A stretch of 64,000 nucleotides of DNA, taken from contig JARFIW010001109.1 in NCBI GenBank assembly GCA_036346225.1, positions 496,001 through 560,000 on the forward strand, written 5' to 3'. Below, piece by piece: positions 31,001 to 64,000 of this stretch (the first letter of the stretch is position 1; each line of letters starts with the position of its first letter). The notes beneath the pieces were generated by a model. The model saw nothing but the letters and a program-made list of their open reading frames with translations, did not search any database and was not told the DNA's origin. The position numbers and the translations under genes were made by a program. This DNA comes from Platerodrilus igneus (taxonomy: Eukaryota > Arthropoda > Insecta > Coleoptera > Lycidae).

Positions 31001-32305
31001 ATGGGAGTAAAAATTTATTATGAATTTGAGACCTTGTGTAGAATTGCAAATAAGTAATTTTTAGCTAATTTTTAATTTTTTTTCTGTTATACAAAATTAT
31101 TATACTCTAAAAAAATTGTTACAAAATACATTTTAATTTGATTATCTTTTAAACTTTCTGTTCCATATTGTTGTACTTTTTTGTTTTAATGAAATTTGAA
31201 AATACATTTATTTTTCACCTATTGTCATTGTCATCTGTTTTAGGATTTTGATATTGCTGGCTCCTATGATCCAATGATACCTGATGCAGAATGTATTAGA
31301 GTGGTCCATGAAATTTTGGATTCCCTTCAACTGGGTCCATATGTTATTAAATTGAACCATCGTTTACTTTTAGATGGCATGTTCGAAGCTTGTGGTGTGC
31401 CTGTTGAAAAGTTTAGATCAATTTGCTCGGCCGTTGACAAGTTAGATAAGGTAATCATTCACTTATGGTTCAGTGATGATATTTAGCTTCACATTTTGCA
31501 GTCTCCATGGGAAGAAGTTCGAAAAGAAATGGTTGATGAAAAAGGGCTTTCTGCAGAAGTAGCAGACAAAATTGGACATTATGTGGTATTGAATGGCAAA
31601 AAAGAACTCGTTGAAAAGTTATTAACAGACAGTGATCTAATTAAAGCACGAAGTGCGGTGGCTGGCTTAGAGGCAATGAAATTGCTACTTCACTATTCTG
31701 ACTTATTTGGTGTTAGCAATAACATTCTTTTTGATCTCAGCCTTGCTCGAGGCTTAGATTATTATACGGGTGTTATTTATGAGGCTGTTTTACTTGGCGA
31801 TACCACAGTTGACGGTGAACCTATTTCAGTAGGTTCAATTGCTGGAGGTGGACGTTATGATAATCTTGTGGGTATGTTTGATACAAAACATAAACAAGTT
31901 CCTTGTGTTGGTGTTTCTATTGGAATTGAACGAATTTTTGCTGTACTCGAAGCAAAACTTTTGACTAAGCAAAGTAAAGTTAGAACAACTGCTGTGGAAG
32001 TTTATGTAGCATCGGCTCAAAAAAATTTATTGGATCATAGAATGCGACTCTGTAAAGAGTTATGGGATGAAGGTTTTAAAGTTGAGCAGTCTTACAAAAG
32101 CAATCCAAAGCTTCTAGCACAACTACAACACTGTGAAGAATATAGAATTCCATTGGCTGTTATTATAGGTGAATCAGAAATAGCCAAAGGAGTTGTAAAA
32201 ATAAGAAATGTGGTAACGAGAGCAGAAGTTGAAGTTCCCAGGGCAAAGTTGTTTGAAGAGATAAGAAAACAACTACAACCACTATATTCTAATGGTTGCA
32301 GTTAG
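996..32305 (+). CDS. HisRS: Histidyl-tRNA synthetase, mitochondrial-type N-terminus, five coding exons
   Basis: Class II aminoacyl-tRNA synthetase that charges tRNA-His. Coding exons are 996-1073, 1124-1333, 29799-30020, 31244-31450 and 31502-32305; all junctions are GT-AG, in phase 0, and give 506 residues, close to the usual animal length of about 505-510. Residues 1-26 ([15 protein letters not shown]...) are basic, lack acidic residues and look like a mitochondrial targeting peptide. Residues 27-41 ([15 protein letters not shown]) are the second half of a WHEP helix. [13 protein letters not shown] opens the catalytic core; motif 2 is at about 146-170 ([15 protein letters not shown]), the HisRS-specific [10 protein letters not shown] at 320-329, GGGRYD at 355-360 and motif 3 GIERIF at 380-385. 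The anticodon-binding domain fills about 400-500. No inactivating change is visible. In many animals one HisRS gene makes cytosolic and mitochondrial forms through alternative first exons; only the mitochondrial type is visible here. Confidence 0.97.
1124..1333 (+). CDS. HisRS: HisRS coding exon 2: WHEP half and start of catalytic core
   Basis: Seventy codons, phase 0 at both ends, donor AAA|GTAAGT. It starts inside the WHEP helix ([15 protein letters not shown]) and continues into [29 protein letters not shown] domain cut at this point is expected if an alternative upstream exon supplies the first half of WHEP for the cytosolic isoform. Confidence 0.95.
1600..3112 (+). pseudogene. BEL/Pao LTR retrotransposon remnant, gag and integrase joined by a deletion
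   Basis: Three blocks of BEL/Pao coding sequence run in order on the plus strand. About 1620-1870 matches the N-terminal coiled region of gag (LVRGRG then [13 protein letters not shown]). About 2000-2130 contains the DUF1759 signature PKLDLPT followed by [12 protein letters not shown]. From 2227 an integrase reads [24 protein letters not shown], and 2700-3100 carries [13 protein letters not shown] and the C-terminal [20 protein letters not shown] segment. The protease, reverse transcriptase and RNase H are absent between gag and integrase, and there are frameshifts and stops throughout. The element is dead. It has the same orientation as HisRS. Confidence 0.85.
3556..3571 (+). promoter_or_regulatory. 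Possible BEL polypurine tract and start of 3' LTR
   Basis: AAATGGGGGCGGCC lies 440 bp beyond the integrase end and is followed directly by TGTAAAAC. A G-rich tract with GGGGGCGGC next to TG is the usual layout of the second-strand primer site and LTR start in BEL elements. No second LTR copy was found on the left, so this rests on the motif and position alone. Confidence 0.35.
3572..7035. other. Intronic sequence, possibly part of a BEL LTR at the left end
   Basis: About 3590-4700 is less AT-rich than its surroundings (for example around 4270-4560) and may be the BEL 3' LTR or another repeat; its 89-codon open frame at 4277 has no domain I recognise. From 4700 to 7035 the sequence is AT-rich with frequent stops on both strands, and I see nothing that I can name. 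Confidence 0.4.
7040..7165 (-). pseudogene. Tc1-like transposase C-terminal scrap
   Basis: On the minus strand the sequence reads [17 protein letters not shown] followed by a short stretch ending in LCIRCSK. This follows the pattern of the extreme C-terminus of Tc1-family transposases (a WxxIPQE motif followed by a RRC-containing helix). It is only about 40 codons long with no recognisable DDE core attached. The assignment is tentative. Confidence 0.35.
7170..9725. other. Intronic AT-rich sequence with one unexplained open frame
   Basis: I see no transposon or RNA gene here. The only unusual item is the 142-codon open frame at 8540-8968, listed separately. The interval 9430-9600 is somewhat less AT-rich but shows no motif I can assign. 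Confidence 0.4.
8540..8968 (+). CDS. Unrecognised hydrophobic open frame, 142 codons
   Basis: I do not recognise this frame. It has no conventional ATG start (it opens at GTG) and encodes a very hydrophobic protein with about four possible membrane segments, including [19 protein letters not shown] and [22 protein letters not shown]-rich stretch read in the right frame will often look like a membrane protein, so hydrophobicity is weak evidence. About 140 stop-free codons at this base composition is uncommon but could occur once in 64 kb by chance. A splice-acceptor-like TTTTGTTACAG lies inside the frame near 8620. It could be an exon of a nested gene or chance. Confidence 0.15.
   Translation: MVFNKLSYVDNRINYISNHTAILVLLQSICFYSNFERIPLNVIRIDYRLLVERDYLLLVVFATITFITRLLLYFKRAVTCYPFLKFTLYVSTVVLLLALGTCLILKILLHFYIFYYIMLSWMLLILSLVIHAIVGSTLELVK
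9731..10042 (-). pseudogene. Degenerate Tc1-like transposase fragment
   Basis: The frame contains [19 protein letters not shown], which follows the Tc1 layout of a helix, then (M/L)xWPxxSPDLNPIE containing the third catalytic residue. Upstream, FMKNNTDP resembles the xQQDNDPKH segment that carries the second catalytic Asp, but most of its residues are changed. The final NPIE is not preserved. It is probably an old copy beyond function. Other explanations for a 103-codon frame are possible. Confidence 0.35.
10050..17109. other. Intronic AT-rich sequence without assignable features
   Basis: I examined this 7-kb interval on both strands. Open frames of 60-90 codons (10052, 11272, 12741, 15625, 16665 on plus; 10272, 15545, 15932 on minus) show no family motif, and several overlap in different frames as chance ORFs do. 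No inverted repeats with long arms, RNA genes or LTRs were noticed. It appears to be ordinary intron, perhaps with transposons too old to read. Confidence 0.45.
17110..17821. mobile_element. Foldback MITE with 127-bp terminal inverted repeats
   Basis: The arm at 17110-17236 (starting AAAGTATCAAAAATGTTTAA) is the reverse complement of 17695-17821 (ending TAAAACATTTTTGATACTTT) with only about a dozen differences across 127 bp. The 458-bp centre has no coding frame. This is the layout of a non-autonomous DNA transposon. I could not pick out a clear target-site duplication at the arm ends, so the superfamily is open. The divergence between arms suggests it is not recent. Confidence 0.85.
17822..19045. 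other. Intronic AT-rich sequence, nothing assignable
   Basis: Very AT-rich with frequent stops in all frames. No repeat arms or motifs recognised. Confidence 0.4.
19048..19142 (+). repeat. Dispersed repeat module A, copy 1
   Basis: GACATATCTTTCGTTTGAAC and the following CTTGTACTAGCTGATGTTG, ending TACCCATA, recur at 52160-52260 with roughly 80% identity. The second copy lies just after a Gypsy pol end, so the module probably belongs to an LTR or the 3' untranslated part of that Gypsy family. Module B (20690-20835) pairs with 56212-56330 in the same order and at a similar distance. Confidence 0.7.
19265..19456. repeat. Imperfect 190-bp inverted repeat (possible MITE)
   Basis: The arm at about 19265-19335 contains AATAAATCCAATTCTG and TCTTATGTGTGCATTATG. 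Its reverse complement is at about 19382-19456 (CATAATGCACACATTAGAAT-like, then ATTGGGTTTATT). Arms are about 70 bp with roughly 80% match and a 45-bp loop. It lies between dispersed modules A and B and may be part of that larger repeat. Confidence 0.7.
20065..20601 (-). CDS. Unrecognised acidic repeat ORF, possible exon of a nested gene or transposon
   Basis: A 178-codon open frame with no family I recognise. The middle carries four degenerate copies of a unit of about 13-17 residues, as in [36 protein letters not shown] and [13 protein letters not shown]; the DNA repeats accordingly. On the minus strand a perfect donor CAG|GTAAG ends the repeat block at 20176, and a strong acceptor (TTCCTCCTCAG) ends at 20620, so 20176-20619 looks like an internal exon. 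The frame has no ATG at its start and a TGA sits between that acceptor and the open stretch, which argues against simple coding. It lies between repeat modules A and B, so a mobile-element origin is quite possible. The plus strand is also open across the repeats (about 80 codons). Confidence 0.3.
   Translation of the reverse strand: MESVLQITDLQVATQECVPTDLNDSTKEIPVAFAIIDVEVTITYHTNGEGPVEVSELISIMPVVVVKVSPDPVPISAVVDKAIPILTEVLPDFASLSNADEIRPDSIPLFNVDEILPDSAPFDEVLPDSARLSNVDEDLHDQVSLQPSLLYYGMKCIMLPNCYSNDNDVLYRPTNGIN
20690..20835 (+). repeat. Dispersed repeat module B, copy 1
   Basis: TTCTCTTTGAAAATATCTTC, then TTTGGTATTTACGATCAAAG and AACCTAACCTG, matches 56212-56330 (TTTGAAAAATATCTTCAAGA, TTTGGTATTTATGACCAAG, AGCTAACCTG). 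The motif TTGAAAATATCTTCGAGA also occurs near 53615 and 56155, so module B contains a short sub-repeat. Confidence 0.7.
20836..22571. other. Intronic AT-rich sequence, nothing assignable
   Basis: No open frame above 60 codons, no repeat arms and no RNA motifs were noticed in this 1.7-kb stretch. Confidence 0.4.
22572..22905 (+). mobile_element. Mariner-family MITE or end fragment (TACAGGGTGTC terminus)
   Basis: Starts with TACAGGGTGTCAAAGG, the TA plus CAGGGTG terminus used by insect IS630/Tc1/mariner elements; the complete element at 38987 has the same type of end. The following AGGCATTTGGGAATTTTCC, CTTTAAAATGACAATAACTT and TTTCTATCTTTTTATGCGAAA blocks give the look of a conserved non-coding terminal region. 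A possible inner or far end near 22885-22893 (TACACC) is incomplete, so I treat it as one end or a short non-autonomous copy. Confidence 0.5.
22906..24970. other. Intronic AT-rich sequence, nothing assignable
   Basis: Contains only short overlapping frames, such as 61 codons at 23993 on the minus strand. The last 150 bp (24820-24970) may be non-coding sequence belonging to the transposase fragment that follows. Confidence 0.4.
24975..25223 (-). pseudogene. Mariner-family transposase fragment, N-terminal helix-turn-helix
   Basis: The minus-strand frame reads [36 protein letters not shown] and [12 protein letters not shown]. This is the second helix-turn-helix and linker of the insect transposase family whose other copy here (39647-40706) reads STRQIAREVVVSQWKVVDVL, HKNNIRPFHFTPVQAL. 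The catalytic D-D-D/E core is missing, so it is a truncated copy. Confidence 0.75.
25224..25835. other. Intronic sequence, nothing assignable
   Basis: A 75-codon plus-strand frame at 25413 has no recognisable domain. No repeat structure seen. Confidence 0.35.
25836..26204 (+). repeat. Two short direct-repeat pairs
   Basis: CATAATCCAACACCTTTAAC at 25836-25866 recurs at 25888-25917 (52-bp spacing) with ACCAATCAG conserved in both. CGAGTTATGGCCATTACTC at 26093-26118 recurs at 26176-26204 as CGAGTTATGATAGCCATTAC, ending CATTCGGA in both. Between the first pair is the palindrome GGATTATG...CATAATCC. This is probably the remains of a repetitive non-autonomous element. Confidence 0.6.
26205..27729. 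other. Intronic AT-rich sequence, nothing assignable
   Basis: A T-rich hydrophobic frame at 27359-27586 is probably a chance product of composition. The right end may include more of the Gypsy LTR that starts at 27936 on the minus strand. Confidence 0.35.
27730..27936 (-). repeat. Gypsy 3' LTR (start part), minus orientation
   Basis: On the minus strand TGTAACAGTAATTAAGAAG begins at 27936, directly after the G-rich tract AAAGGGGTGG that follows the pol/macro frame. This is the expected polypurine tract-LTR junction. A second related stretch lies at 29280-29440: both contain CTAGAATGT and TAATATAATCATATCTGTCT-like sequence. The far end of the LTR is not determined. Confidence 0.55.
27948..28770 (-). 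pseudogene. Gypsy pol C-terminus (integrase) continuing into a macro domain
   Basis: One minus-strand frame, interrupted by two in-frame stops (28548-28550 and 28224-28226), runs from 28766 to 27948. The upstream part is the integrase C-terminal region of mdg1/412-type Gypsy elements: [72 protein letters not shown]. After about 60 linker residues the same frame gives [23 protein letters not shown] and [19 protein letters not shown]. These correspond to the ADP-ribose-binding loop and central strands of OARD1-type macro domains, which remove ADP-ribose from proteins or from O-acetyl-ADP-ribose. The end of the macro fold appears shifted or lost. Neighbours are LTR-like sequence on both sides. 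The copy is not functional. Confidence 0.8.
28800..29470 (-). repeat. Probable Gypsy 5' LTR with core promoter, minus orientation
   Basis: Upstream, in transcription sense, of the pol fragment. About 29361-29385 shares CTAGACAGAT(A)TGATTATATTA with 27803-27830 of the 3' LTR. At 29240-29260 the minus strand reads TATATAAGAACGAACCCC, then CACTGTGATAGGGCAGTG, a TATA box followed by a possible initiator. If correct, almost all of gag-pol has been deleted between this LTR and the integrase tail. Boundaries are uncertain. Confidence 0.45.
29799..30020 (+). CDS. HisRS: HisRS coding exon 3: motif 2 region
   Basis: Seventy-four codons from [17 protein letters not shown] through [17 protein letters not shown] to REFYQC, donor TGT|GTAAGT. 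Carries the ATP/histidine-contacting motif 2 arginine in RGRYREF. Confidence 0.97.
30021..31243 (+). other. HisRS intron 3 (1.2 kb)
   Basis: GTAAGT to TCTGTTTTAG. AT-rich; no transposon or other feature recognised inside. Confidence 0.9.
31244..31450 (+). CDS. HisRS: HisRS coding exon 4
   Basis: Sixty-nine codons from [16 protein letters not shown] to SAVDKLDK, donor AAG|GTAATC. The junction QC|DFDIAG is exactly conserved in animal HisRS. Followed by a 51-bp intron (31451-31501). Confidence 0.97.
31502..32305 (+). CDS. HisRS: HisRS coding exon 5: catalytic core end and anticodon-binding domain
   Basis: Codes for [10 protein letters not shown] to YSNGCS and the TAG at 32303-32305. Contains [16 protein letters not shown], motif 3 and the anticodon-binding alpha/beta domain ([40 protein letters not shown]). 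Confidence 0.98.
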   Translation, partial: SPWEEVRKEMVDEKGLSAEVADKIGHYVVLNGKKELVEKLLTDSDLIKARSAVAGLEAMKLLLHYSDLFGVSNNILFDLSLARGLDYYTGVIYEAVLLGDTTVDGEPISVGSIAGGGRYDNLVGMFDTKHKQVPCVGVSIGIERIFAVLEAKLLTKQSKVRTTAVEVYVASAQKNLLDHRMRLCKELWDEGFKVEQSYKSNPKLLAQLQHCEEYRIPLAVIIGESEIAKGVVKIRNVVTRAEVEVPRAKLFEEIRKQLQPLYSNGCS

Positions 32306-39646: not shown

Positions 39647-40706
39647 ATGCCTGCTCGTTATAGCAATAGAGAATATGCAGATATGCATTTCATTTATGGT
39701 TTTTGTAATGGTAATGCTACAAGAGCACGGGAGGAATATCAACGTCGGTTCCCAAATCGTCCGATCCCCAGTCGCAACGTGTTTGCAAGAACGCACTAAT
39801 GGCTCCTTGATGGAGGAGCATTTCAAGTACCTAACGAAAGGGGGCAAGATCTGGACGTAGAAATTGACGAGTTTGTCTTGGATCGAGTGGAACAAGACCC
39901 TACAACTTCTACACGTCAAATTGCAAGAGAGGTTGTAGTTTCGCAATGGAAAGTAGTAGATGTTCTGCACAAGAATAATATTCGTCCTTTTCACTTTACA
40001 CCTGTTCAAGCTCTGGAAGGCGGATGCGAAGATTTCCAACGAAGGTTGATGTTCTGCCGTTGGTTATTAGCACAAGATATTGAGGAGCGTAATTTCTTTC
40101 GAAAAATACTGTGGTCTGATGAGTCCCTCTTTATGCACGTTGGCGTTCTAAATCCCCACAATTACCACTATTATGCCAATAAAAACCCTCATGCAATAAG
40201 ACAGAAATCGTTCCAACACAAGCCTAAATGTGTGGGCGGCTGTGATAGGAAACATCCTTATTGACCCCTATATTTTCGAAAAAAACCTCAATGGAGAAGT
40301 GTATTTCGACTTTCTTCAAAATCAACTACCCCTATTGTTGGAAGATGTCCCTTTAGAAGTTCATAGAGATATCATTTTTCAACATGACGGGGCTCCTCAT
40401 TACACACGTGGTGTCCGCCAGTTTTTAAACGAACAGTACGCAAGGTGGAGTGGTAGAGGAGGACCGATTCCGTGGCCAGCAAGATCGTCTGACTGGAATC
40501 CCATGGATTACTTTGTATGGGGCTTTTTAAAAGAATACGTATACAGCACGGAGGTAGTCAGTTTGGAAAATTTGAGACAAAGGCTCGAAAATGGATGTCA
40601 GCTCTTAAGAGAGAAGCTATCTATGAGCGTGACCGTGGTAGGTATGTGGAAAAGAGCAAGAACCTGTATCAGGTGCGGTGGTCAGCATTTTGAACAATAC
40701 AAATAA
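39647..40706 (+). pseudogene. Mariner-family (IS630/Tc1) transposase with DUF4817-like N-terminus
   Basis: The protein begins [19 protein letters not shown], a DUF4817-type N-terminal domain with [15 protein letters not shown] second helix-turn-helix follows (QDPTTSTRQIAREVVVSQWK, IRPFHFTPVQAL). The catalytic core shows WSDESLF (first Asp), FQHDGAPHYTRGVRQFL (second Asp) and WPARSSDWNPMDYFVWGFL (third acidic position, Asp in DWNPMD). In-frame TAA lies at about 39797, and a frameshift lies at about 40225 where CDRKHPY should read on as WAAVIG. About 350 codons in full, normal for the family. A shorter relative is at 24975-25223. Confidence 0.88.
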
Positions 40707-51400: not shown

Positions 51401-54400
51401 TAGACATTATACTCCAATTGATGGTAGTTGTTATGGTTCTGTTCCTGAAGATACTTATGTAATTGAATTTGATGAAAGAATACGTAGAACCAAACACCAA
51501 TAGTCACTACCTCCCATCTTTATCGATGTTAGAAAAAATTAATCCAAGGCTTATGAAAAAATTAAGTCACTACAATCTTCATAAAAAAACATTTCCTTTG
51601 CGCTGGCTGAACAATTACGGAAGAAAAATCAAGCTCCATCTGATACAACTAAAAAGTTTTTTGCTAAACTAGCTCCATTAATTATGAACTACAACATTCA
51701 AATGACAAACCTCAAGAACGTTGGCATGTTAAGATTTTAAAACCATTTTCGTCTGTCCCAAATGAGTAGTACTTACTTATCCTTATGTTTATACCTTCAT
51801 TTAAATATACTTTCTCTTTTCTACCTTTATTTCAACCAATTTTTTTCTTTCAAGGTTACAGTATCACTATCAATATATCTTAACATCGAACCTTCATTTC
51901 TTTAACGTCTACCTAGATCTAATGTATACCTTTTACACTTGTCCTATTGGTTATAAATATACATTGTCTCTGAACCTCAAATCTTTTCAAACCTTTTTAT
52001 TTCATAAATAGCTCGTTCATTTCTAAATGATAGCTTCCTCATTCCTAGTTTAAACAATTTTTTTTCTATTGTCATTACACTCAAATAATTCTGTTTCTTT
52101 TAAATTTTCACCTTTTAGCTCGCCATCATTTCTATTGTTACATAACCTACATTCTTTTATCGTAGTTAACATATCTTTCGTTTGAACAAATCAGCAAATC
52201 TTTAGGACTTGTACTAACTGATGTTGCATTACTGCTTTATTCCTTATTTACCCATAGGATTGCGACCTACGCCTTTGTAGTAAACACCGATTTTCACAGT
52301 TGCGACTACAAAAAATATCTATTCAATGCACTTTCATTCGCATATGTTTCAATCATTTGTTACGCATTCCATTATCAATTGTTTTATATCATAGGACGTT
52401 GATACATTTTTTCTGTTTTTCTGAAACGTGTTGGTGAGGGATTGCCGCCTTTGTCATTTTCAACTATTATTCCTTATTATTTTATGGAATTCAAAATTTG
52501 TGTACTTCTATATTTGATTAGTTGTCTATCGCACAATTATTTTAGTTTGTCTATGGTACGTTTAGTTTTCGAAATTATCTTGTGGGTATATTAAGTTGGT
52601 CGTGTTACCCTTGGTACGTTTAGTTTTCGAAATTATTTTGTGGGTATATTAAGTTGGTAGTGTTACCCTATTTAATTTTCTTATTGCAATAGACATATTC
52701 AGTAGGAAGATGATTTGTCTAGGTTTCACATGGAGCCTAGTATCGACATATTAGAATAGGAGTTATTTTGTTATTAAAGTGCAGGTGGTCCTTCAGACTG
52801 ATCTGTTTTAATAGGGACATTCTCTACTTTTACTTTTTCTCAAGGATGCTTATCCGGCAAACTCTACTTTTCCTTATCCCCTTATCGCCGTTTCCAACCT
52901 TTTTTTTTCATTCGTTAGACTTGTCTAAGTCCCAAGATAACCATATATCACATAAGAGTAGTGACTCCCCACTCGAAATATTCCATCACCATCTTTTATC
53001 TTTTCTATATTCTATTTTTTTACTTTCTAAGTCGCTGCATAGATAGAGGTTTGTTACCTCACAACATTGGGTCGTGGGAGTGGGGGACCTCCATCTAGCT
53101 GTGTAACGCCACAGTCTACTGCTGATTTATGTAAGCATGCTGATTTCTTCCTAATCGATGCAGGAGCGGAGGGACTGCATTCCCATTTCTACCTGGTCTT
53201 TCATGCTGTTCATATAAACGAGTACCGCTTCGCGGAACTTCTCCTTTTGGAGGGCAGGAATAAAAATCCCCTTTTAAGATCCTACAGGATTACTCTACTC
53301 GCTTGAGAGAGTCTCTTTCTGTTATTATATTTATAGGAGTCGTGTGCCCTTACAAGTGTATGATCTCCAAACCAAAATAGATTGTTACATTATCTTTTCT
53401 TAGAACTTTTGTCTTAAGATCTTATCTTATTATTAGAGTACATCATAAATGTTTTATGTTTATTCTTCTCTTTGCAGTTATCTTGGAGATCTTAAGTTGT
53501 ATAATTAATATATGACCATCAAGGGTTGGATAGTTATCTTTTCCTAAAAATATCTCAGTACTTTACCTGGTAAATGTTTCAAACGAGTAAATGGTTTGTT
53601 GTCTATATTTCTCCTTGAAAATGTCTTCGAGATTTTACCTTATCTAAACAATGATCTAAACCAGGGATGGGCAAACTTTTTTAGGATGCGGTCTACTTCT
53701 AATTTTTTTACAATGTGTCGGTCCACCAGATATTTATTAAAATAATTATAATAAACAATGTGGTATAAATGTACATAGGTAACTAAAAAAATGAAAATAG
53801 AAAGGAACTTAGGTATATATTTTCAAACAAAATTTAAAGATTATAAAAGTATAAAAATATTAAGTTCATAAAAAATATTCCGATTCGAATTATTATTTAA
53901 GAGAAAGTCATGTGAAATTGTCCGCATTAGAAGATTTACACTGCATATCCTCTGCTAATTTAGTAAATCTTGGTATATAATTACTAACTACCAGTCTTGT
54001 ACTGCATTCGAGGTGATTGTCTGTAAGACGGAGCGATATTTTGATTTAATTATATTCATCGAGAAAATGCAGATTCACATAGGTAGGTAGAGCCAAAGAA
54101 CGATGTTAAATTTAATGCGAGATTTTTAAATTAGGATACTTAACTTCGTCTATTAAATTCCAAAAAATATTTGTAGGATCTGAACTATGTGCTTTTAAAA
54201 TTATGTCATTTTGAAGAAGAAGAACTTCATCTTTCTCAATAGTTATAGAAAACAATTCGTTTATATTTTTGGTTATTTCTTCCACATCAACGTTCCCAAA
54301 TGGGTAAGACATAAATGCAACTATTGGTTCTAGTTTTGTAAATTCTTGAAAACGATTCTCAAATTCAGAGCTAAGATTACTTAGTTCCCCATAAAATTTT

Positions 54401-57400
54401 TCCTTATTTAAAATACCTCCGTTTTTGCAAAACTCGTCAGAAATGTTTTTGAAGTTTTTCAGTTCATTCTTTATTAACTGGGAGGAAAGTAGCTTTAGCT
54501 TACTTTTGAAAGTATTAACATATCCGATCAATTCTGCTATTGATCGATTTTGTCCTTGTAATTGCAGGTTTAATTCATTAAGATGATTTGTTATATCCAC
54601 AACAAAAGCTAAATCCATTAACCAAACGTCGTCACTAAGTTCAGCATACTCTTCATCCTTTAATTTTAAAAATCTTTGATCTCTGGAAGTAGCTCCTGAA
54701 CCTTTGTAAAAATATATTCCGACTTAACCAACGAACATCAGCATGATATAACAATTCCCGGCATCAGATTCATTTTCTTCTAACTGTGCCCTAAACATTC
54801 TTCTTTGAAGACTTTTTCCTCGAATCGAGTTGACAATTTTCATACAGATTCCCATTATATGAGACATATTTAATACTTTGCAACACAAGGCTTGTTGATG
54901 AATTATACAATGATAGCTCAAGAAATTTGGTATATCATCATCGCGTTTGCAAATAGCCAAAAATCCTTTGATTTTTCCTGTCATTGCAGGGGCCCCATCG
55001 GTCGTCATTGATGCTATTTTATAAATTGGAATTTTATTTTCAACTATATACTTTTTAAATGCATCGTAAACATCTTCACCTCGGGTTTTCTTTTTTAAAG
55101 GCAATATGGTTAACAATTCTTCCTTCACGCTCATGTCCTTGAAAACCATTCTTATAAAAATGCATAACTGAGAAGTATCTACTAAATCTGTAGATTCATG
55201 AAACTGTAAAGAAAAGCAAATACATTTTTCTACATCTTCTCTCAGTTGATTAGATATATCAGAATTCATCATTTCTATACGCCGCGTAACAGTTCGACGC
55301 GAAGTTGGATGTCTTTAATTGCCGAAATGATTTCTTTTTGTTCTTAAAAGTGTCAAATAATGAATCGGCTTCCAGAAAGGCTTTTTACCAAATCTCCATC
55401 TGCGAAAGGTTTTTGTGTTTTGCTAACACTTGACACACACGAAAAGATGCAACAGTTGCAGCTTTAGTAATGGTAATTGATTTAGTAAAATATGATTGTT
55501 GACCGATTAATTGTGATTTAAGTTCTTTAACTTTCGCTTATGCGCAATTCGCTGTTTAACGGATAATCCTTATCAAAACTACCGTGCATGGTTTTGAAGT
55601 GTCTTTCAACGTTTCCTTTTTTGGGAGTGCTACACTTGCACTGCATATAAAACATACACAGTTTTCTTTCACCATTGTAAAGAAAACTGTTCTTCCCATT
55701 CTGAATTAAAGTTGTATGTTTTCCTTTTCTTGGCACTTGTGCTTGAAGATTCCATATTTAAAAATTTAATAATTATTTATATATGTTAACAATAAAAATA
55801 CTCGGTATAAAAATCTTTTAGCTGAGTACTTGGTTAAGAATCGAACGTCGATGAGAGAATGTAGTTCGAGCCGTAGAAAGCTTAACGCTATCTAGATACG
55901 TGCATACTAGAAAGAATATAAATACGACCTCTGCTTTGCGTGCGTTAAGAGCTACATCGTCCCGCATCGATGTTCAGTTCTTTAACCCCGAGTAATGGAA
56001 TTTTTTATATTCTAAGGAGTAGTTTAAGTAAAAAAGACAAATATTAAAGGCGATCACTCTAAAATGACTCGGCGGTCCACCAGTCGATCGCGATCGACTT
56101 AATGCCCACCTCTGATCTAAACCATAAATGGTTATATTTCTTCTTTCTCTCTGAAATTATCTTCGAGATGTTATTTTATTTTACCGTTGTTGCAAAGCAA
56201 ATAAACTACCTCTATTTTTCGCTTTGAAAAATATCTTCAAGAGCTTATCTATTTGATGTTCCAAACCTTTGGTATTTATGACCAAGCTAGAATTTATCAT
56301 AAAAAGAAAAGAGCTAACCTGTTTTTTAATTAAGTATTTGCTAGGATAAGATTGGAAAATTATGTATTCTTAATGCAGTAGTAATGATTAATTTGTTTAC
56401 TTTGTTTTTATTGCTGCAATGTATTTTGTCTTTATCATTTTGCTAAAAGCCACTACGTAATTTGTTTAATTTAAGAGAATTTCTTAAAGGTATTCATGAA
56501 ATGTTGTATGCATTAATATGCAATGAAAAAATGAATTTTGTATTTAGTTTTATAGTGAATTTAAGTGTTAATTTTAAGTGTTTGAGTCTCATACTCTCAA
56601 CTAATTTTGTGCGGTCGGTGTGGCGGCAAACAAAACCCTTGCATGCTCAGATGATGTAGCTTGAAGTTGGGTGGCTACTTATTTTCGTTTCTTGGAATTG
56701 CAAGAATTGCCATAGTTTAAAAACCAGGTAGTGCTTACAGACATTATTAAATTTAAGCTTTCTGTGCATGTGAGTTCTTATACAAAGAGCCTTTTCCTTT
56801 TTTCTTTTTTTCTTTTTGAAGCTATGATGTGATTTTACGTCTCTTCGGTTGTACAAAATTTCGTTCTAACATTTGATATACGGATGGTTCCATCATCCAA
56901 AAAAAAAAGAAAGTTTTTCCCATCACTAATTTAATTAGGTTACTATCTGTAAAGTTTGTAGTTTCTGGGTTCACGCAAACTAAGGTCAAGAACCCATAAT
57001 TTATCGATGTATTCTTCCAAACTCACACTTTCACAGACTTTGAAGAATGCGTGATTATCCCTTAATCAATGAAAACGTTTTTACAGTGGATGGTAACAAC
57101 CAAGTTCGTGTAAACATGAGTTTTGGCGGGGATATGATGTTAGACTATCGTACCACATCGATGTATTAAACGCAAGACGTGTTAATTGCAAGGAGAGTAC
57201 CTGCTGAATTCATTATCTATCCCATATCTAATCACCACAAATATCTGTCCCGAAACTGTGTAGGTAAAACACACTTCACACGGGGGCATGTTTTCACTAT
57301 GACTATTGACCAAAGGTAAGTTCTTTGCCAAATTTTTAATTGTTTTTCTTTGTATGAAATTCGTGTAAACTTTATTCCACCCATATACCACGTTCCGTGC

Positions 57401-58213
57401 TAAAGTATGTAAATCTGTAACCGTTTGACAGCAATAATTTGCTACCACATTTGAGGCATAATAAAATTCGCCTGTAGGTTAATCGTAATATGGGTCACGT
57501 GCACTCAATGCATAATACGCATTTCGACATCATTATAAAAAATTTAGAACTATTAATTTAATTTATTAAGATTCACTATTTTTGCTGTATTTCTCTAAAC
57601 TTTATATATGAATCATTGGCAATCATTTCAAAACTCAGGTATAGTTTCTAAATCAGTTTAACAAAATTAGTTATGCAATTTTTAACTGTATACTATAATA
57701 AAGTTATAGTTAGGATGTATACTTACTGGTTTTCTCCATCAATATTGCACATATAAATGCTATGACCCTGAGTCCAAACAATTAAATCGTTCTCAGCATC
57801 AACAGCAATAGCTGCAATGTCACTACTTTTTGTTATCACAATTCTTTGAGTGCCATCCATCCTAGTTCTAACGAGTTGTGGTGATGTTCCAACATCAGTA
57901 AAAAATAGTAAACTACAAATAACCAGTTTGAACATTAAAACATCACACGCAACACCTACCGTTTCGTAGGGTGAATGGCTAATAATCGAGGTTTTTGACC
58001 TTCCTTTTGCACTACAATTCCAACAGTTGAAGTATTATCCAATTTAGTAATGTTTATTACATCCTGGGAAGCACATGACCAGAACAATAGGCGACCCAAT
58101 GCATCTACAGCAAGGTCGAAAGGATGATGACCCTGGTTTCCTGGAATTATCACAGACATATGTAAACCAGTGTCAGAAGCACGCTTAATAGATGAATGCA
58201 CTTTTCCTTCAAC
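47110..58213 (-). CDS. arr: Arrow / LRP5/6 Wnt co-receptor, C-terminal 593 residues (three exons)
   Basis: Single-pass receptor that binds Wnt with Frizzled and, once phosphorylated on PPP(S/T)P motifs, recruits Axin. Exons on the minus strand are 58213-57960, 57912-57727 and 48451-47110; all junctions are GT-AG and restore one frame (CG|T and CA|C codons). The first two exons and the start of the third give part of the last beta-propeller (PFDLAVDALGRLLFW, AIHPTKRLLFFTD, LVRTRMDG, WLYWLDREI). Then follow an EGF-like module (CAQPHPKRCSHLC), three LDLa repeats with CDGQTDCPDGSDE-type calcium sites, and a transmembrane helix (LIIIILSVIIAIIGFSVLFF). The tail has SYDRNHITGASSS and five motifs: NPPPSP, QPPPPTPCSTDVCDE, IPPPPTPR, SCPPSP and LPPPPSP. 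It ends VPSPTH. Length and order match vertebrate LRP5/6 closely. The remaining N-terminal propellers lie beyond the right edge. Confidence 0.97.
48500..51195. other. Intronic AT-rich stretch, nothing assignable
   Basis: Apart from a short (TTTA)n run near 50655 there is no recognisable feature. The right end may contain older Gypsy coding sequence too decayed to read. Confidence 0.35.
51200..51769 (+). pseudogene. Gypsy pol 3' end (integrase C-terminal half)
   Basis: Starts at YHPQVKPTECVNCVIVAAIS (the integrase region HPQxNPxERxNR), continues SLIESDYTKQDKNIFNIAQA and LHTSMHVTQFSPSSLVFRH, and ends in WHVKILKPFSSVPNE followed by TAG at 51767. Several frameshifts. Only the end of pol is present; what follows (52.1-56.3 kb) is probably its 3' untranslated region and LTR. 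Confidence 0.8.
52160..52260 (+). repeat. Dispersed repeat module A, copy 2
   Basis: TTAACATATCTTTCGTTTGA then ACTTGTACTAACTGATGTTG and TTTACCCATAGG; matches 19048-19142. Confidence 0.7.
52555..52670 (+). repeat. 58-bp tandem duplication
   Basis: Unit GGTACGTTTAGTTTTCGAAA...AAGTTGGTCGTGTTACCCTT at 52555-52612 and again at 52613-52670 with two substitutions. A recent slippage or unequal-exchange event, possibly an LTR enhancer-type repeat. Confidence 0.95.
53654..53661. repeat. hAT target-site duplication, left copy
   Basis: ATCTAAAC, identical to 56115-56122. Confidence 0.92.
53900..55745 (-). pseudogene. hAT transposase (broken)
   Basis: Reading from 55736: a BED-type finger region (CMFYMQCKCSTPKKGNVERH, FKTMHGSFDKDYP), then a damaged linker (QQSYFTKSI). 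The catalytic RNase H-like fold follows at 55272-54724 with LQFHESTDLVDTSQLCIFIR (first catalytic Asp region), TTDGAPAMTGKIKGF and HCIIHQQALCCK. Next comes DLAFVVDITNHLNELNLQLQ at 54618 and, in another frame near 54110, the C-terminal dimerisation region (LTDNHLECSTRL). At least two frameshifts (near 54690 and 54110) and stops in the linker break it. The family is that domesticated in GTF2IRD2 and ZBED-like genes. Confidence 0.85.
56083..56098. repeat. 16-bp perfect palindrome in hAT subterminal region
   Basis: GTCGATCGCGATCGAC is its own reverse complement and CpG-rich in an AT-rich setting, 16 bp from the element end. It could be a transposase-binding site. Confidence 0.8.
56115..56122. repeat. 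hAT target-site duplication, right copy
   Basis: ATCTAAAC, pairs with 53654-53661. Confidence 0.92.
56123..56330 (+). repeat. Dispersed repeat module B, copy 2
   Basis: Continues the sequence interrupted by the hAT element. 56212-56330 matches 20690-20835. Two sub-repeats of the TTGAAATTATCTTCGAGA type are visible here. Confidence 0.7.
56331..57720. other. Intronic stretch, nothing assignable
   Basis: 56880-57480 is less AT-rich and has an 88-codon minus frame at 57182 that contains no recognised domain; it may be an old transposon. The rest is plain AT-rich intron. Confidence 0.35.
57727..57912 (-). CDS. arr: arrow exon, beta-propeller part 2
   Basis: Acceptor TTATTTGTAG, donor CA|GTAAGT. 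Encodes LLFFTDVGTSPQLVRTRMDG to IYMCNIDGEN, one and a half YWTD-type blades. Confidence 0.93.
57960..58213 (-). CDS. arr: arrow exon, beta-propeller part 1
   Basis: Acceptor CCACTTTTAG, donor CG|GTAGGT, followed by a 47-bp intron (57913-57959). Encodes VEGKVHSSIKRASDTGLHMS to RLLAIHPTK. The acceptor at 58215-58214 shows that more coding exons lie to the right, outside the window. Confidence 0.93.
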
Positions 58214-58401
58214 CTAAAAGTGGAAAAAAATATATTATTACTAATTTGTATTTTGATATATGATATGATGATATATGAAAATAATGCAGTAAAGAAAATG
58301 TTAAGAATTATATTAGTAGGGGAGCCAGCGATATTTTTGGTGTGTTATTTATGCATGGCTAAATAACAAATTTTTCGTTTATTCTTACCTAATAGTATAT
58401 T

Positions 58402-58920
58402 GAAATAATTTGCTGCAAACAAATGGGTGGTGGAGAGCCCGACGACGGTGTTTTAAACATGGCATTTCTGAAAGTGCTAATGTGAAAAAAGCGCAAGCTT
58501 GAAACGTTCAGATATCCTTATTTGCATCAAAAGTTAACAGAAAACAATTTGCTGCAACCTTGGTAGCGGTGAAAAACCTTGCTGCAGTGACCTTCAAGTT
58601 TGGATAATGACATTGCTGTATGTTGTATTTCCGCAAGGCTCAAATTTTTTTCTATGTTAGAATGGTATATGTTATTGACAGAAAACGTTTGCTGCAATCG
58701 ATGTGCTGGTGGAAAGCTCTTGCAGCAAAGCGAGAAGGTGCTACGTGCCGAATTTTAAAAAGTTCAAAAACGTGTATGTTACACATCAATTTTTCCCAAA
58801 CATTATTATTAATGCAAGCCTCAAAAATTGTACACACACAATATACATTATTACTTATTAGAATGTAGAAAACCATTTGCTGCAAATTATTTGCTGGTGG
58901 AAAGTCCTGGTGGCAAAGAC
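58402..58920 (-). repeat. Four diverged copies of a 140-190-bp repeat with a TTTGCTGCAA core
   Basis: Core units at 58402-58440, 58540-58588, 58681-58730 and 58868-58920 share GAAAAC-N-TTTGCTGCAA, then a variable spacer, GCTGGTGGAAAG and GCAGCAAAG or an equivalent. Spacing is about 138, 141 and 187 bp. The array lies just beyond the 3' end of the PIN-like pseudogene and outside its coding region, as subterminal repeats of a DNA transposon would. Confidence 0.8.
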
Positions 58921-59215
58921 TTAAGTTGTTGGATTAAAGGCAGTATGTAGCTAAAATCTACTTTTATTTAAGTTGTGTAATTTATAAAAAGTTTTAAATG
59001 TATTTGTAGAATACACGTAACTTGGTTCTTAAACAGCAATACTTTGTATTGTGTGTTTTCTCTTTCAAATTATAAACTTTATTGTTGAAAATAATTGTAT
59101 TGTACAAATTAACTTATAGCAGGGAATCGTCTTCCAAATGGAAACTTGATTCTTCATCACTTTCATCAGCCTCATCACCGGCAGAAATGTCATCATCTCT
59201 TAATTCCTCATCTAG
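58921..59215 (-). other. 3' flank of the PIN-like gene with an acidic open tail
   Basis: On the minus strand 59250-59110 one frame reads LLLLDEELRDDDISAGDEAD and ESDEESSFHLEDDSLL then stop. Acidic tails are common in this protein family, but this frame is one base out of register with the predicted splice to the upstream exon. It may be real coding sequence after a frameshift. Confidence 0.4.
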
Positions 59216-61602
59216 TAGTAGTAGATCGATCTGTGGGCGCGTCTTGATCAGCACCTGCAAAAGATTTCATTTATATTTTTGAAAATTTGTTAGTTCGTAT
59301 AAAAAATTTCTTTGTTTTAATAAAAAATTATATTTCATAAATTAGTATAAATTTATTAGTTACCATCGTCATGCGGTTCTTCAGTCTCTGTATTCAGTAT
59401 TTCTTCAACTGAAAATGGCAATTGTACCCCTTCGAACCATTTTGCACAATATTTTTCATCAATCACATCCCAACCATATGCCGTGAGAACTTCTTCAGAT
59501 GGAGATTGTTGATGTGCATTTGACCATATCTTGGCTACATAAGCTGATCGAAAAATTTGAGAAAGGAGTTCGGTTTTACAAGGAGGCAAGTTTGATCCAT
59601 CACACTTAGATGCATTATTTTCAAAGTTTTCTTCAATATTAAAACATTTGTAAGCTCTTATGAAAGCAGATAATCGTACTTGATTAATGTCTTCAACTTT
59701 GTTATGATAATACATTCTACAAGTAAAATTTTCAACAGCTGTTATAATGTCTTCTTGGAGTGGACGATTCGCTAATTTCATGAAAGCTTGTACATAATCA
59801 TGGGAATTGCATAATATCTCAAAAGGGCGCTTCTTTCCTTTTCGATAAAAAGCTGGGATGTAATCACACCCAGTGAACGCATGAAACCCTGATAAAGCTT
59901 TGCAAAGATCTGCTCCTAAATTTCGTATAATATACTTAAGTTAACCGTTTTAACATTATATCCTGTTCCAAGTCTTATCCACACTTTTACATTACTACTA
60001 AGAAGCCCCATATTGGCAAGCATTATAATCACAACATCCGTATCTGAACATCGCAATAATACATTCATATCATTTTCAACATTGCATGCATGAAAAACCA
60101 TTTTTGTATCTGACCGTGCAGTGGGCATGATAAATGAGTTACCTCGCTCCTTACTACAATGCCATCAACAACTTCATACTTGTGGCATGTTTTAAAATTA
60201 ATAAAAAAAATTTTATGCCTATAAATGAAATCATTTCAGGTTTTGACCAATCATCTATGAGAAACTCTATAAGACCTTCCTTGAAAGAGATGTTTTTTAA
60301 TTCCTTATGAAAGTCTGCAGGACGAGACTGTTGGGGACCTTGCATAGTATAAGGATTTTTTTTCGAATCCTCGTAGTGAATGTTCGAAATTTTTTATAGA
60401 GAGACTGAAATATTGATCGAATGAAATTATAATTATTCGAGCTTTAGTACGCAGAGGCATTTGCAAAAATTGTTTGGAGATATTGCCAAAAGTAGATGGT
60501 ACCTCTCTCATCAAGTATAACCTAAAAGAAACATTATAAATTATACAGTCCATATTCTCCTACTCTTCTATAATGGTTTTGCTTTCAATGAGTTTAAGTA
60601 AGGCTGACCTGTCAGTTTTGCAAAATGCCCCATCACTATGACATAAAGAAAGTGGAATCGGGGTGAGGATATGTCAGCGTTTTCTCTAAATTGATCTAAT
60701 TGCTCAACGATATTCCTAACAATCTGCCAAACAAATCTCGGTGCATTCTAAGCGCAATTACTTTTCCACTACCTTTAACTTTTTTATCGAGCATTTGAGT
60801 AAATGTTTGACTCTGAATTTTCTTTATAGGTTTTACATACCTTGTTTTATCAATGGTGTATTCAGATATGAAAGTGTTTCGAAGTTCTTTTCCTTTAACT
60901 TCAAAATTTAACAAAAATTCTGCTATAGAATTGTTTGCAGCTTTTCCACTAGAAATATCAAACAAACTTTATCTAGATAAGGCGAAAAAGGATTTATATT
61001 TTCTTTGATATTATTAATTAATGTATTAAGCTGAGAATTACATAATTTTATATAACTAGACTCGAGATTTGATGTTATATCTTCTCGCCGTTTTAGTCCA
61101 CTTTTATGTAATGTATTTATGTATGTAATGTAATGTAATGTAATGTAATGTAATGTAATGTAATGTAATGTAATGTAATTATAGTAGTTCTTAAACTATG
61201 GTTTTTACACCATCTCCGACTAGCTGCAATATTGTTGGAACTATTAACTATGTCAGTTGATTTATTAGCTGCATCAGCATTAATAGTTTGTTCGAGTACT
61301 AGATCGATGGGTTGACGAGAAAATGGTTTACTCGTTCCTTTAATACCAAAGGAACATCTTAAAAATAGTTTTAATCCTGGGTGAGTCTGATCGACATTCA
61401 GCAAATTTTCATGGTATTTTACTAAATATCTGAAGTAATTTTGTTGATTAGAAGCGAAAAAAATACTTGTGATTTTGGAAAGAATATATACAAACAAGTA
61501 ATAATCTGTCGTTCTAATACTTCTTTGCAGTAATAGATAATACTGAATTAAATTTATGTAAATAATATAAAATTGAGGTGTTTTCCCATGTCTACCAGCC
61601 AA
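59216..61602 (-). pseudogene. Degenerate gene with FEN1/XPG-like PIN nuclease motifs, probably from an unfamiliar mobile element
   Basis: Collinear blocks of one protein appear on the minus strand. They are AGRHGKTPQFYIIYINLIQY (61602), SRQPIDLVLEQTINADAANK (61300), LFDISSGKAANNSIAEFLLN (60965) and KGSGKVIALRMHRDLFGRLL. These are followed by MREVPSTFGNISKQFLQM, FDQYFSLSIKNFEHSLRG (60500), DTKMVFHACNVENDMNVLLR with CSDTDVVIIMLANMG (60100), GFHAFTGCDYIPAFYRKGKK (59880), and CDGSNLPPCKTELL (59600). FDxYxxxSIKxxE, the EADT-like DTKM, SDTDVV and GCDYxxxFxxKGK follow the order of the N, I and helix-hairpin-helix parts of FEN1-type nucleases. A GT-AG intron seems to lie at 59261-59364. Frameshifts, stops and a pentanucleotide expansion show decay. 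The frame is cut off at 61602 by a Gypsy LTR. The function is inferred from motifs only. Confidence 0.65.
61124..61180. repeat. (TAATG)n pentanucleotide microsatellite
   Basis: About 11 uninterrupted TAATG units. It lies inside the decayed PIN-like frame, where its minus strand reads as repeated HYITL. Confidence 0.97.
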
Positions 61603-61610
61603 AGTTGTTG

Positions 61611-61775
61611 TGTTATTACCTTGTAACTATTTATATTAAAGAAAGCACCAGTGTATATATGGTATAGCAGACCTTTTATTACAATAAAAAAAACTTGACC
61701 CCCGTTGTCACAGCCCACTCTTCCCATATCTGTAGGTTAGGTATCAACCATCATAGTGTCTCTACTTACAGAACA
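61611..61775 (-). repeat. Gypsy 3' LTR, 165 bp
   Basis: On the minus strand the LTR starts TGTTCTGTAAGTAGAGACAC and ends GTTACAAGGTAATAACA (TG...CA). It contains TATATAC and an AATAAA-type poly(A) signal (GTAATAAAAGGTC). It lies directly after a polypurine tract, minus-strand AAAAAGGGAGGA at 61776-61787. The coding sequence of the PIN-like gene resumes within 10 bp of its other end, so the insertion point is exact. Confidence 0.85.
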
Positions 61776-64000
61776 TCCTCCCTTTTTAGACAATACTTAA
61801 CAATGCTAACTACAAAATTCTTGAACGCCTACAAAACAAAGTCTATGGTTATGCCTAATCTTTATAAAGCATAATCAGACATCCAGGTAGGTTTTCTAAA
61901 ATTCTTTTTGGTTTCACCGATACAATGGCCTTAGCCTCCTGATCATTAATGACTGGCTGTATGTCAGATTTGATAGTTTCATTTAGCCATTTCTTTTTGG
62001 GAGAATTATCCGGCACTATACTACACTCCGGATCATTTTCATCAACACTTTTTTTCGTCTGTGCATGGTCCGCACTCACTGTATTTTGTAAATCTAATTT
62101 ATACTGGCTATATATTTTAATCTGTTCCTGAAACGGAGCTTCAATAAGCATCCATCTGTTACGCCTGTATAAACCTTTCTGCGTTTTAACTATATACGAT
62201 CGTGGTTCTGCACATTTCTGTTCTATACACCCATACTCCCTAAGATCGGTTACCCATACAGGAGTACCTATCACTAATTCACACATGTCTTTGGTTCTAT
62301 GCCTGGCACTATAATTTTCTCTCATCACCTTTTTTCTTTTAGATTCCGCTTTTAAATAAACCTGTTTAAAATCGAAAATTTCCTCCAACTTTTCTGGTAA
62401 TATAGGTAATAACGTTTTTATTTTCCTATTCATAAGGAGTTCAGCGGGGCTAAACCCACACTCCAATGGAGTGGCCCGGTAAGCCATTAAGGCAAAATTA
62501 AGGTCCTCATTCTTTTTTATTAAGTTCTTTGCTACTTTAACAGCTGCTTCTACCGTGCCATTGGATTGTGAAAAGTAAGGGCTGCTTGCTACATGAAGAA
62601 ATTTATAATTATTAGCAAAGTTTTTAAAACCTTTTAGAAACTGTGGACCGTTGTCTGTGCGATAAATATCTGGAATTCCAAATCGAGCAAGAATAGTTTT
62701 CATACAAATAATAACTTCATCTTCAGTTAATTTTGTTAAAGGAAGTATTTCTATAAATCGCGAATAATAATCGGTTACTATTAGAAACCAGCTTTTACAT
62801 TTGAACAAGTCTACAGCAATAACTTGCTATGGTCTGGTAGGAGAATATTCTCTTAAAAATAATTCCTTAATATTAACCCTTTCTTGGACACACTTGGGGC
62901 ATGCTCTAATCAGATTTTCAATTTGCGTGGATAGTCCAATCCACCATACCAAACTTTTGGCCCGCTCCCTGCATTTTACTATACCCTGATGCCCTGTGTG
63001 TATGTAATTCAGAACCTCCAATTGTAAACTCGCTGGAATAACAATTCGGCTACCTTTTAGCAAAATATCCTCAGCTATGCTTATCTCATTACAATACTGA
63101 AAATAAGCAATTAATTCAAGAGGTATCATTTGTTTCTCCTGCCAACCAGAAGTTAAATACAGTTTTTATTTAATTAAATCAGCAGACTGTGTTGAGATAA
63201 TTTTCTCTAAAAAATAATCTTTAATTGGTAGTGATTTTACTACCAATTTAACATGAGCCTCTATCTCTGAAGACAACTCTGCACTTTGCGGTGTATTCTT
63301 TAAAGGACTCCTTGATAGTGCATCTGCCACTACCAACTGTTTTCCAGGTGTATACATGACATGAAAATCGTAGCGCATAAGGCGAATTCGAAATCTCTGA
63401 AGTCTGGGAGTGAGTTCGTCTAGATTTTTTGACTGTAGTATTTGCAAAAAAAGGTTTATGATCAGTTTCCAAAACAATAGGAATACCTATAACATATTCT
63501 TGAAAATGTTCACATGCCCAGGCCAACGCTAACGCTTCTTTCTCGATCTGTGCATAACGCATTACCGTAGGTGTCAAGGTTCTTGACCCGTAAGCCACTA
63601 ACTTACGTTCTCCTTTTTCTTCTTGCATTAGCACACATCCAATTCCGTAGGAAGAGGAATCTGCACTAACTATAATTTTTTATTATAATCAAAAAATGAA
63701 AGACATGAAGCCTTTATTAAGAGATTTTTTATTTCTTGAAATGCAATTTTTTGTGCAACCTCCCATTGAAAAACTACATCATTTTTTAAAACACTAGTAA
63801 TGGGTTTTAAGATTTGGGATTTATTTGGAATAAATCGAGATGCAAAATTAACCATCCCCATAAATTGCTGCATTTCTTTTCTATTAGTGGGTGCTGGAAA
63901 TTGAGTGATTGCTTCTATTCTAGAAGGCACCACTTTCGCCCCCGCTGCCGATATAACATGTCCTAAAAATTGAATTTTATCAACTCCTATAAGACATTTT
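61776..64000 (-). pseudogene. Ty3/Gypsy pol: RT thumb, RNase H, H2C2 finger, integrase
   Basis: Reading right to left from the edge: reverse transcriptase tail (IEAITQFPAPTNRKEMQQFM, GMVNFASRFIPN); RNase H (VAYGSRTLTPTVMRYAQIEK, LETDHKPFF, YTPGKQLVVADALSR); H2C2 zinc finger (HTGHQGIVKCRERAKSLVWW, CPKCVQER); integrase core (FLIVTDYYSRFIEILPL with the first Asp, YRTDNGPQFLKGF with the second, HVASSPYFSQSNGTVEAAVK with the Glu); and C-terminal domain (RHRTKDM, GTPVWVTDLREYG). One TAG replaces a Trp just before the integrase core (about 62828), and a frameshift lies in RNase H near 63400, so this copy is inactive although well preserved. The family resembles the K02A2.6-like Gypsy elements. gag, protease and most of RT are beyond the right edge. 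Confidence 0.93.

Follow-up and report, generated by a model that had tools for sequence, protein, structure and literature searches.

What kind of mobile element, if any, brings a flap-endonuclease-like gene into the intron of an insect gene is the question raised by a 64,000-nucleotide stretch of the Platerodrilus igneus genome (contig JARFIW010001109.1, positions 496,001 to 560,000; here called the window), near one end of which lie the remains of a FEN1/XPG-like nuclease gene. In the initial annotation, this gene was attributed to a mobile element of unknown class. Our analysis indicates that it is very probably the remnant of a decayed DNA transposon of the Academ type, similar to the lineage AcademX, which resides within an arrow/LRP6-like gene, in an intron, and was later split by a gypsy retrotransposon. 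The mobile nature is supported by the transposon pattern among relatives, while the class is most likely an already known one, because the architecture of the protein, the divergent copies within species and the near-identical copies across orders fit Academ, lineage AcademX. The window copy itself is an ordinary fossil; the wider outcome is that a nuclease common in arthropod gene sets is explained as the rear portion of a transposase protein.

A broken transposase-nuclease gene

The remnant extends from 61612 to 59114 on the minus strand and can be read as a single broken gene. All four PIN/FEN1-like motif blocks that had been noticed earlier are present, scattered across several short minus-strand open reading frames (ORFs) between 61626 and 59356: FDQYFSLSIK is encoded in ORF 60305-60559, SDTKM and SDTDVV both in ORF 59916-60164, and GCDYIPAFYRKGK in ORF 59356-59940. 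When 12 homologous proteins were used as tblastn queries, all 12 matched the window solely at 61611-59359 (E ≤ 1e-3), each with at least one match at E ≤ 1e-12, and the motif blocks are therefore not a product of chance. The gene is decayed, as had been proposed: the matches to homologue P0010 run through frames -2, -1, -3, -1 (with a -2 piece within its span), -3 and -2, amounting to about seven frame switches, to which further stop codons are added.

Several parts of the gene can be delimited. The C-terminal part of an RNase H-like DDE transposase, similar to the Pfam family DUF6589, occupies 61174..61612 (minus strand; tblastn to residues 815-959 of P0104 and to other homologues), and its conserved glutamate block reads DLVLEQTINADA. 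It is followed by a stretch linking transposase and nuclease at 60614..61117 (minus strand), which lies in pieces in several frames (tblastn to P0010 from 634-785 onward). Between two conserved coding blocks the gene contains an (ATGTA)n microsatellite at 61106..61179 (period 5, 15.4 copies; Tandem Repeats Finder, TRF). The remnant of the XPG/FEN1-fold nuclease covers 59487..60613 (minus strand), approximate limits that were projected from residues 758-1143 of P0013. In P0013 numbering it retains D824, D929, D953, D955 and D1014, and has an asparagine at the position of D785; the position of E927 coincides with a break in the frame and does not encode glutamate. Near the 3' end of the gene, a putative GT-AG intron of 109 bp (59363-59255, minus strand, GTAACT...TTTTGCAG) was read from the sequence, inside which TRF located a 21-bp tandem array (59282-59329). 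An acidic C-terminal tail at 59114..59254 (minus strand), with its stop codon at 59114, completes the gene, in a frame that differs from the one given by the splice; acidic tails likewise terminate the homologues P0001, P0005 and P0104.

The transposase aspartates of this copy, if they survive, lie outside the window. Since the 5' half of the gene is missing here, frame switches and stop codons interrupt the remainder and asparagine replaces D785, the copy is dead and immobile, with several independent defects. No Rfam family reached its gathering threshold in the window.

Domain architecture of the family

The domain content was assessed mainly on relatives. AlphaFold models of two homologues predict a conserved Cys/His N-terminus, probably a zinc site, followed by an RNase H-like DDE transposase and a nuclease of the XPG/FEN1/Exo1 fold, so that the suggestion of a PIN/FEN1-like nuclease holds; a winged-helix-like stretch in relatives gave weak matches only. 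The transposase model displays an RNase H-like core with a helical insertion and matches the P element, Hermes and Transib in structure. In the family, as in the transposases of the P element, hAT and Transib/RAG, a helical insertion precedes the last acidic residue. While a Foldseek search with the transposase-only model returned nothing convincing (Transib at rank 7, E 1.3, probability 0.12), the VIA structure comparison of the same model yielded convincing matches. An RNase H-like DDE fold is hence well supported, if not proven, by the models, and for the nuclease the XPG/FEN1 fold is shown by computation on predicted structures. The acidic residues of both domains are strongly conserved across relatives, and in the nuclease seven conserved acidic positions occur in the order expected of the XPG/FEN1 family; we take these to correspond to the metal-ligand residues of FEN1, in which case the family possesses the metal-binding acid set of the XPG/FEN1 (PIN-like) superfamily in addition to its fold.

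In sequence, these relationships are faint. DUF6589 (PF20231) matches the window ORF 61117-61626 at E 7e-4 with a score of 18.8 bits, which falls short of the cut-off of 27, and apart from this match Pfam searches with nine pieces of the window returned only hits at E 0.09 or worse. Among the 50 members of a family set (A1), DUF6589 was detected in 18 at E ≤ 0.1, as it was in two of six full-length proteins scanned (E 0.051 and 9.8e-6). None of the 50 members matched an XPG family, and none matched a Pfam transposase family (E ≤ 0.1). A search of PDB sequences with the A1 profile retrieved two chains only, both designed helical repeats (E 1.2 and 1.9), and the nuclease is thus recognizable by its fold alone. 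The DUF6589-like block with which the window gene begins would, judging from the models, be the end of the RNase H-like DDE transposase, which contradicts the initial annotation in that no transposase domain had been recognized. This suggests that DUF6589, a Pfam family of unknown function, covers part of such a transposase, and would allow the annotation of these proteins to be cleaned up. One distant relative, P0084 (1184 aa), ends in a Cys-rich tail; a Tesmin/TSO1-like CXC domain matches a single A1 member, which is probably P0084.

The family differs from its structural relatives in several respects. It shares the fold and the seven ordered acidic positions with the 5' nucleases FEN1, Exo1, XPG and GEN1, but its nuclease is joined to a transposase and is only 11-18% identical to them. 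The RNase H-like DDE core is common to the P element, hAT (Hermes) and Transib/RAG, although identity to the transposases of the P element, Hermes and Transib is about 8-10%; to our knowledge, the P element, hAT and Transib/RAG transposases lack a nuclease domain. The Pfam families of hAT and P element match none of the 50 A1 members at E ≤ 0.1, and the window family may work in a similar way to these elements without being filed among them.

For an intact element it might be envisaged that the DDE domain cleaves the element at its ends and links these to new DNA, while the nuclease would trim or open branched, hairpin or 5'-flapped intermediates or process the donor gap. Whether the XPG nuclease is needed for normal transposition or is an accessory appears evenly balanced to us. 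The window copy is capable of neither the DDE nor the nuclease step.

Copies in other species and relation to Academ

With a stitched reading of the window gene as query, 6727 candidates yielded 96 matching proteins at E ≤ 1e-3, the top-scoring of which, from Pieris, is 47% identical across the whole query; a profile search identified 358 proteins at E ≤ 1e-10 among 7989 candidates scored. Among the matches listed, that is the 96 of the stitched query and 120 of the 358 profile matches, the hosts are beetles, moths and butterflies, ants, wasps, sawflies, an aphid, a scale insect, spiders and a limpet, and full-length members measure about 1370-1670 aa. Two matches, P0024 and P0121, are filed under bacterial metagenome-assembled genomes (Desulfocapsa sp. 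and Candidatus Thiodiazotropha endolucinida) and most likely represent eukaryotic (animal) contamination of bacterial bins. At the sensitivity of a pattern scan, GTDB genomes gave 35 pattern matches with no confirmed relative; of two such scans of IMG/VR, one gave no pattern match and the other two matches, neither of them confirmed.

For the comparison of copies, only proteins listed with a species were considered, after exclusion of P0024, P0121 and the Neodiprion proteins P0124, P0125 and P0127. Among the resulting 48 named proteins there are 18 same-species pairs; in their best local alignments (151-1626 aa), 17 of these pairs show 35-60% identity, and the remaining pair is 98% identical. 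In a tree of 48 sequences, comprising the window gene and 47 of these proteins (P0079 was dropped for low overlap), nine species contribute at least two copies each, and none of these species is monophyletic; the neighbor of the window gene is Eretmocerus, with a weak support of 0.718. Between species, identity amounts to 97.8% over 411 aa for P0017 from the wasp Microplitis demolitor and P0056 from the moth Scirpophaga incertulas, to 85% over 725 aa for a copy from a firefly and one from a corn rootworm, and to 84% over 549 aa for a copy from a spider and one from a beetle, with contamination judged solely by the size of the source sequence (P0017, 22.9 Mb; P0056, 158,582 b; P0021, 370,335 b; P0111, 161.6 Mb; P0007, 90.7 Mb; none for P0107). 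Divergent copies within species along with near-identical copies in different species would be the pattern of a transposon passed between species, and the identity of P0017 and P0056 suggests that the family passed recently, by horizontal transfer, between Lepidoptera and a lineage of parasitoid wasps. The wasp-moth and spider-beetle pairs make the family a candidate for studies of horizontal transfer.

This pattern also bears on the possibility that the remnant is a pseudogene copy, either of a nuclease gene of the host or of a domesticated transposon gene. The strong conservation of the acids of both domains and the apparent intron would be in line with such an origin, but same-species pairs that are so divergent and near-identical copies in different orders are not, and we regard it as very unlikely.

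The class of the element is suggested by published systems. Repbase has listed Academ as a superfamily since 2010 (PMC4455052), the works cited for Academ and its lineage AcademX being Kapitonov and Jurka (2010) and Kojima (2020). AcademX elements have animal hosts. As outlined in PMC10045372, AcademX has a DDE transposase, a nuclease and target-site duplications (TSDs) of 3-4 bp, and AcademH, of the same superfamily and hence with a related transposase, encodes a helicase and has TSDs of 9-10 bp. The window family likewise combines, in animals, a predicted DDD/E transposase fold with a C-terminal domain of the XPG/FEN1 fold in a single protein, a likeness to Academ that is drawn from published descriptions of its domains; the window copy differs from AcademX in being a truncated and frameshifted remnant. 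Unlike AcademH, the family shows no helicase Pfam match in the 50 A1 members. The accessions PF00270 and PF00271, which we take to be those of helicases, are also absent among the matches listed. The AcademX nuclease was reportedly assigned to the XPG type by Kojima in 2020. A 2016 paper on the horizontal transfer of Academ, cited in PMC5704228, is reported to have already described the superfamily in moths and in parasitoid wasps, M. demolitor among them; P0017 and P0056 come from these same host groups and are compared with the published elements by host only.

Alternatively, DDE transposons in which an XPG nuclease is fused to the transposase might constitute a separate, unnamed superfamily. 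The absence of matches to Pfam transposase families and the Pfam label of unknown function for the core would speak for this, as would the literature searched, in which DUF6589 was not found and Academ and XPG did not occur together as whole words; XPG in combination with DNA transposons, transposase and Repbase led to unrelated matter only among the matches listed. Both the combination of transposase and nuclease in AcademX and the occurrence of Academ in M. demolitor and moths are, however, already described in the sources just named, and we therefore consider a separate superfamily unlikely. Slightly less probable still is its more specific form, in which a DDE and flap-endonuclease superfamily distinct from Academ depends on an obligate XPG domain for hairpin opening or 5' flap removal, as an end-processing enzyme of its own that replaces that of the host.

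Probable host intron and nested retrotransposon

Downstream of the Academ-like gene lies an exon of the host gene, which is not part of the element (57956..58213, minus strand, ORF limits). It encodes an arrow/LRP6-like sequence of the low-density lipoprotein (LDL) receptor class B, with LRP4 and LRP6 as closest PDB relatives, and an acceptor AG read from the sequence adjoins it at 58214-58215. Because the gene adjoins such an exon with its acceptor, the element most likely sits in an intron of an arrow/LRP6-like gene, as initially annotated, and the upstream exons would fall outside the window. Between the stop codon and the exon, four degenerate repeat units with a TTTGCTGCAA core occupy 58381..58920, starting at about 58403, 58542, 58682 and 58870. 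They were detected by self-BLAST and by their motif, not by TRF, and are pairwise 70-78% identical (best E 3e-7); two pairs were also recovered at E ≤ 0.01 when self-BLAST covered the whole window. These units may be candidate subterminal repeats of the element. Of the tandem array formerly placed beyond the 3' end of the gene, they are the part that lies there, both TRF arrays being located within the gene.

At its other end the gene abuts a sequence of 154 bp with TG...CA termini (61622..61775, minus strand, read from the sequence), probably the 3' long terminal repeat (LTR) of a Ty3/gypsy element, which is adjoined by a purine tract at 61776-61787; we infer this LTR, since no second one was found within the 64-kb window. 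It is followed at 61855..64000 (minus strand) by a gypsy pol sequence, nested in the Academ-like element, with integrase (rve, E 6.5e-12) and H2C2 zinc finger (Integrase_H2C2, E 6.5e-13), the remainder of which runs off the window. The integrase domain reported as lacking is thus present beside the gene, as part of the nested gypsy element. The LTR edge at 61622 corresponds to about residue 810 of P0104, and the window therefore lacks the front half of the gene and contains a single side of the Academ-like element, whose 5' end lies beyond both the gypsy insertion and the window; the Ty3/gypsy element probably inserted into the transposase coding sequence and would thereby have cut off its 5' part. 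That the nuclease belongs to this gypsy element, whose pol adjoins it on the same strand, or was picked up as cargo by some unrelated element, has next to no likelihood, as the probable LTR sits inside the coding sequence, transposase and nuclease are fused in one predicted protein in relatives, and no integrase or reverse transcriptase Pfam family matched in the 50 A1 members or the six full-length proteins.

Elsewhere in the window, two overlapping plus-strand frames at 39800-40706 resemble a frameshifted transposase of the Tc1/mariner type, the second matching DDE_3 at E 3.4e-4, below the cut-off. Two minus-strand frames at 54112-55314, which have no Pfam match at E ≤ 0.001, presumably resemble, as judged by eye, a ZBED/hAT-derived transposase. 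The C-terminal part of a histidyl-tRNA synthetase is encoded at 31487-32305 (plus strand), and a 58-bp unit is present in two copies with 96% matches at 52554-52669 (TRF).
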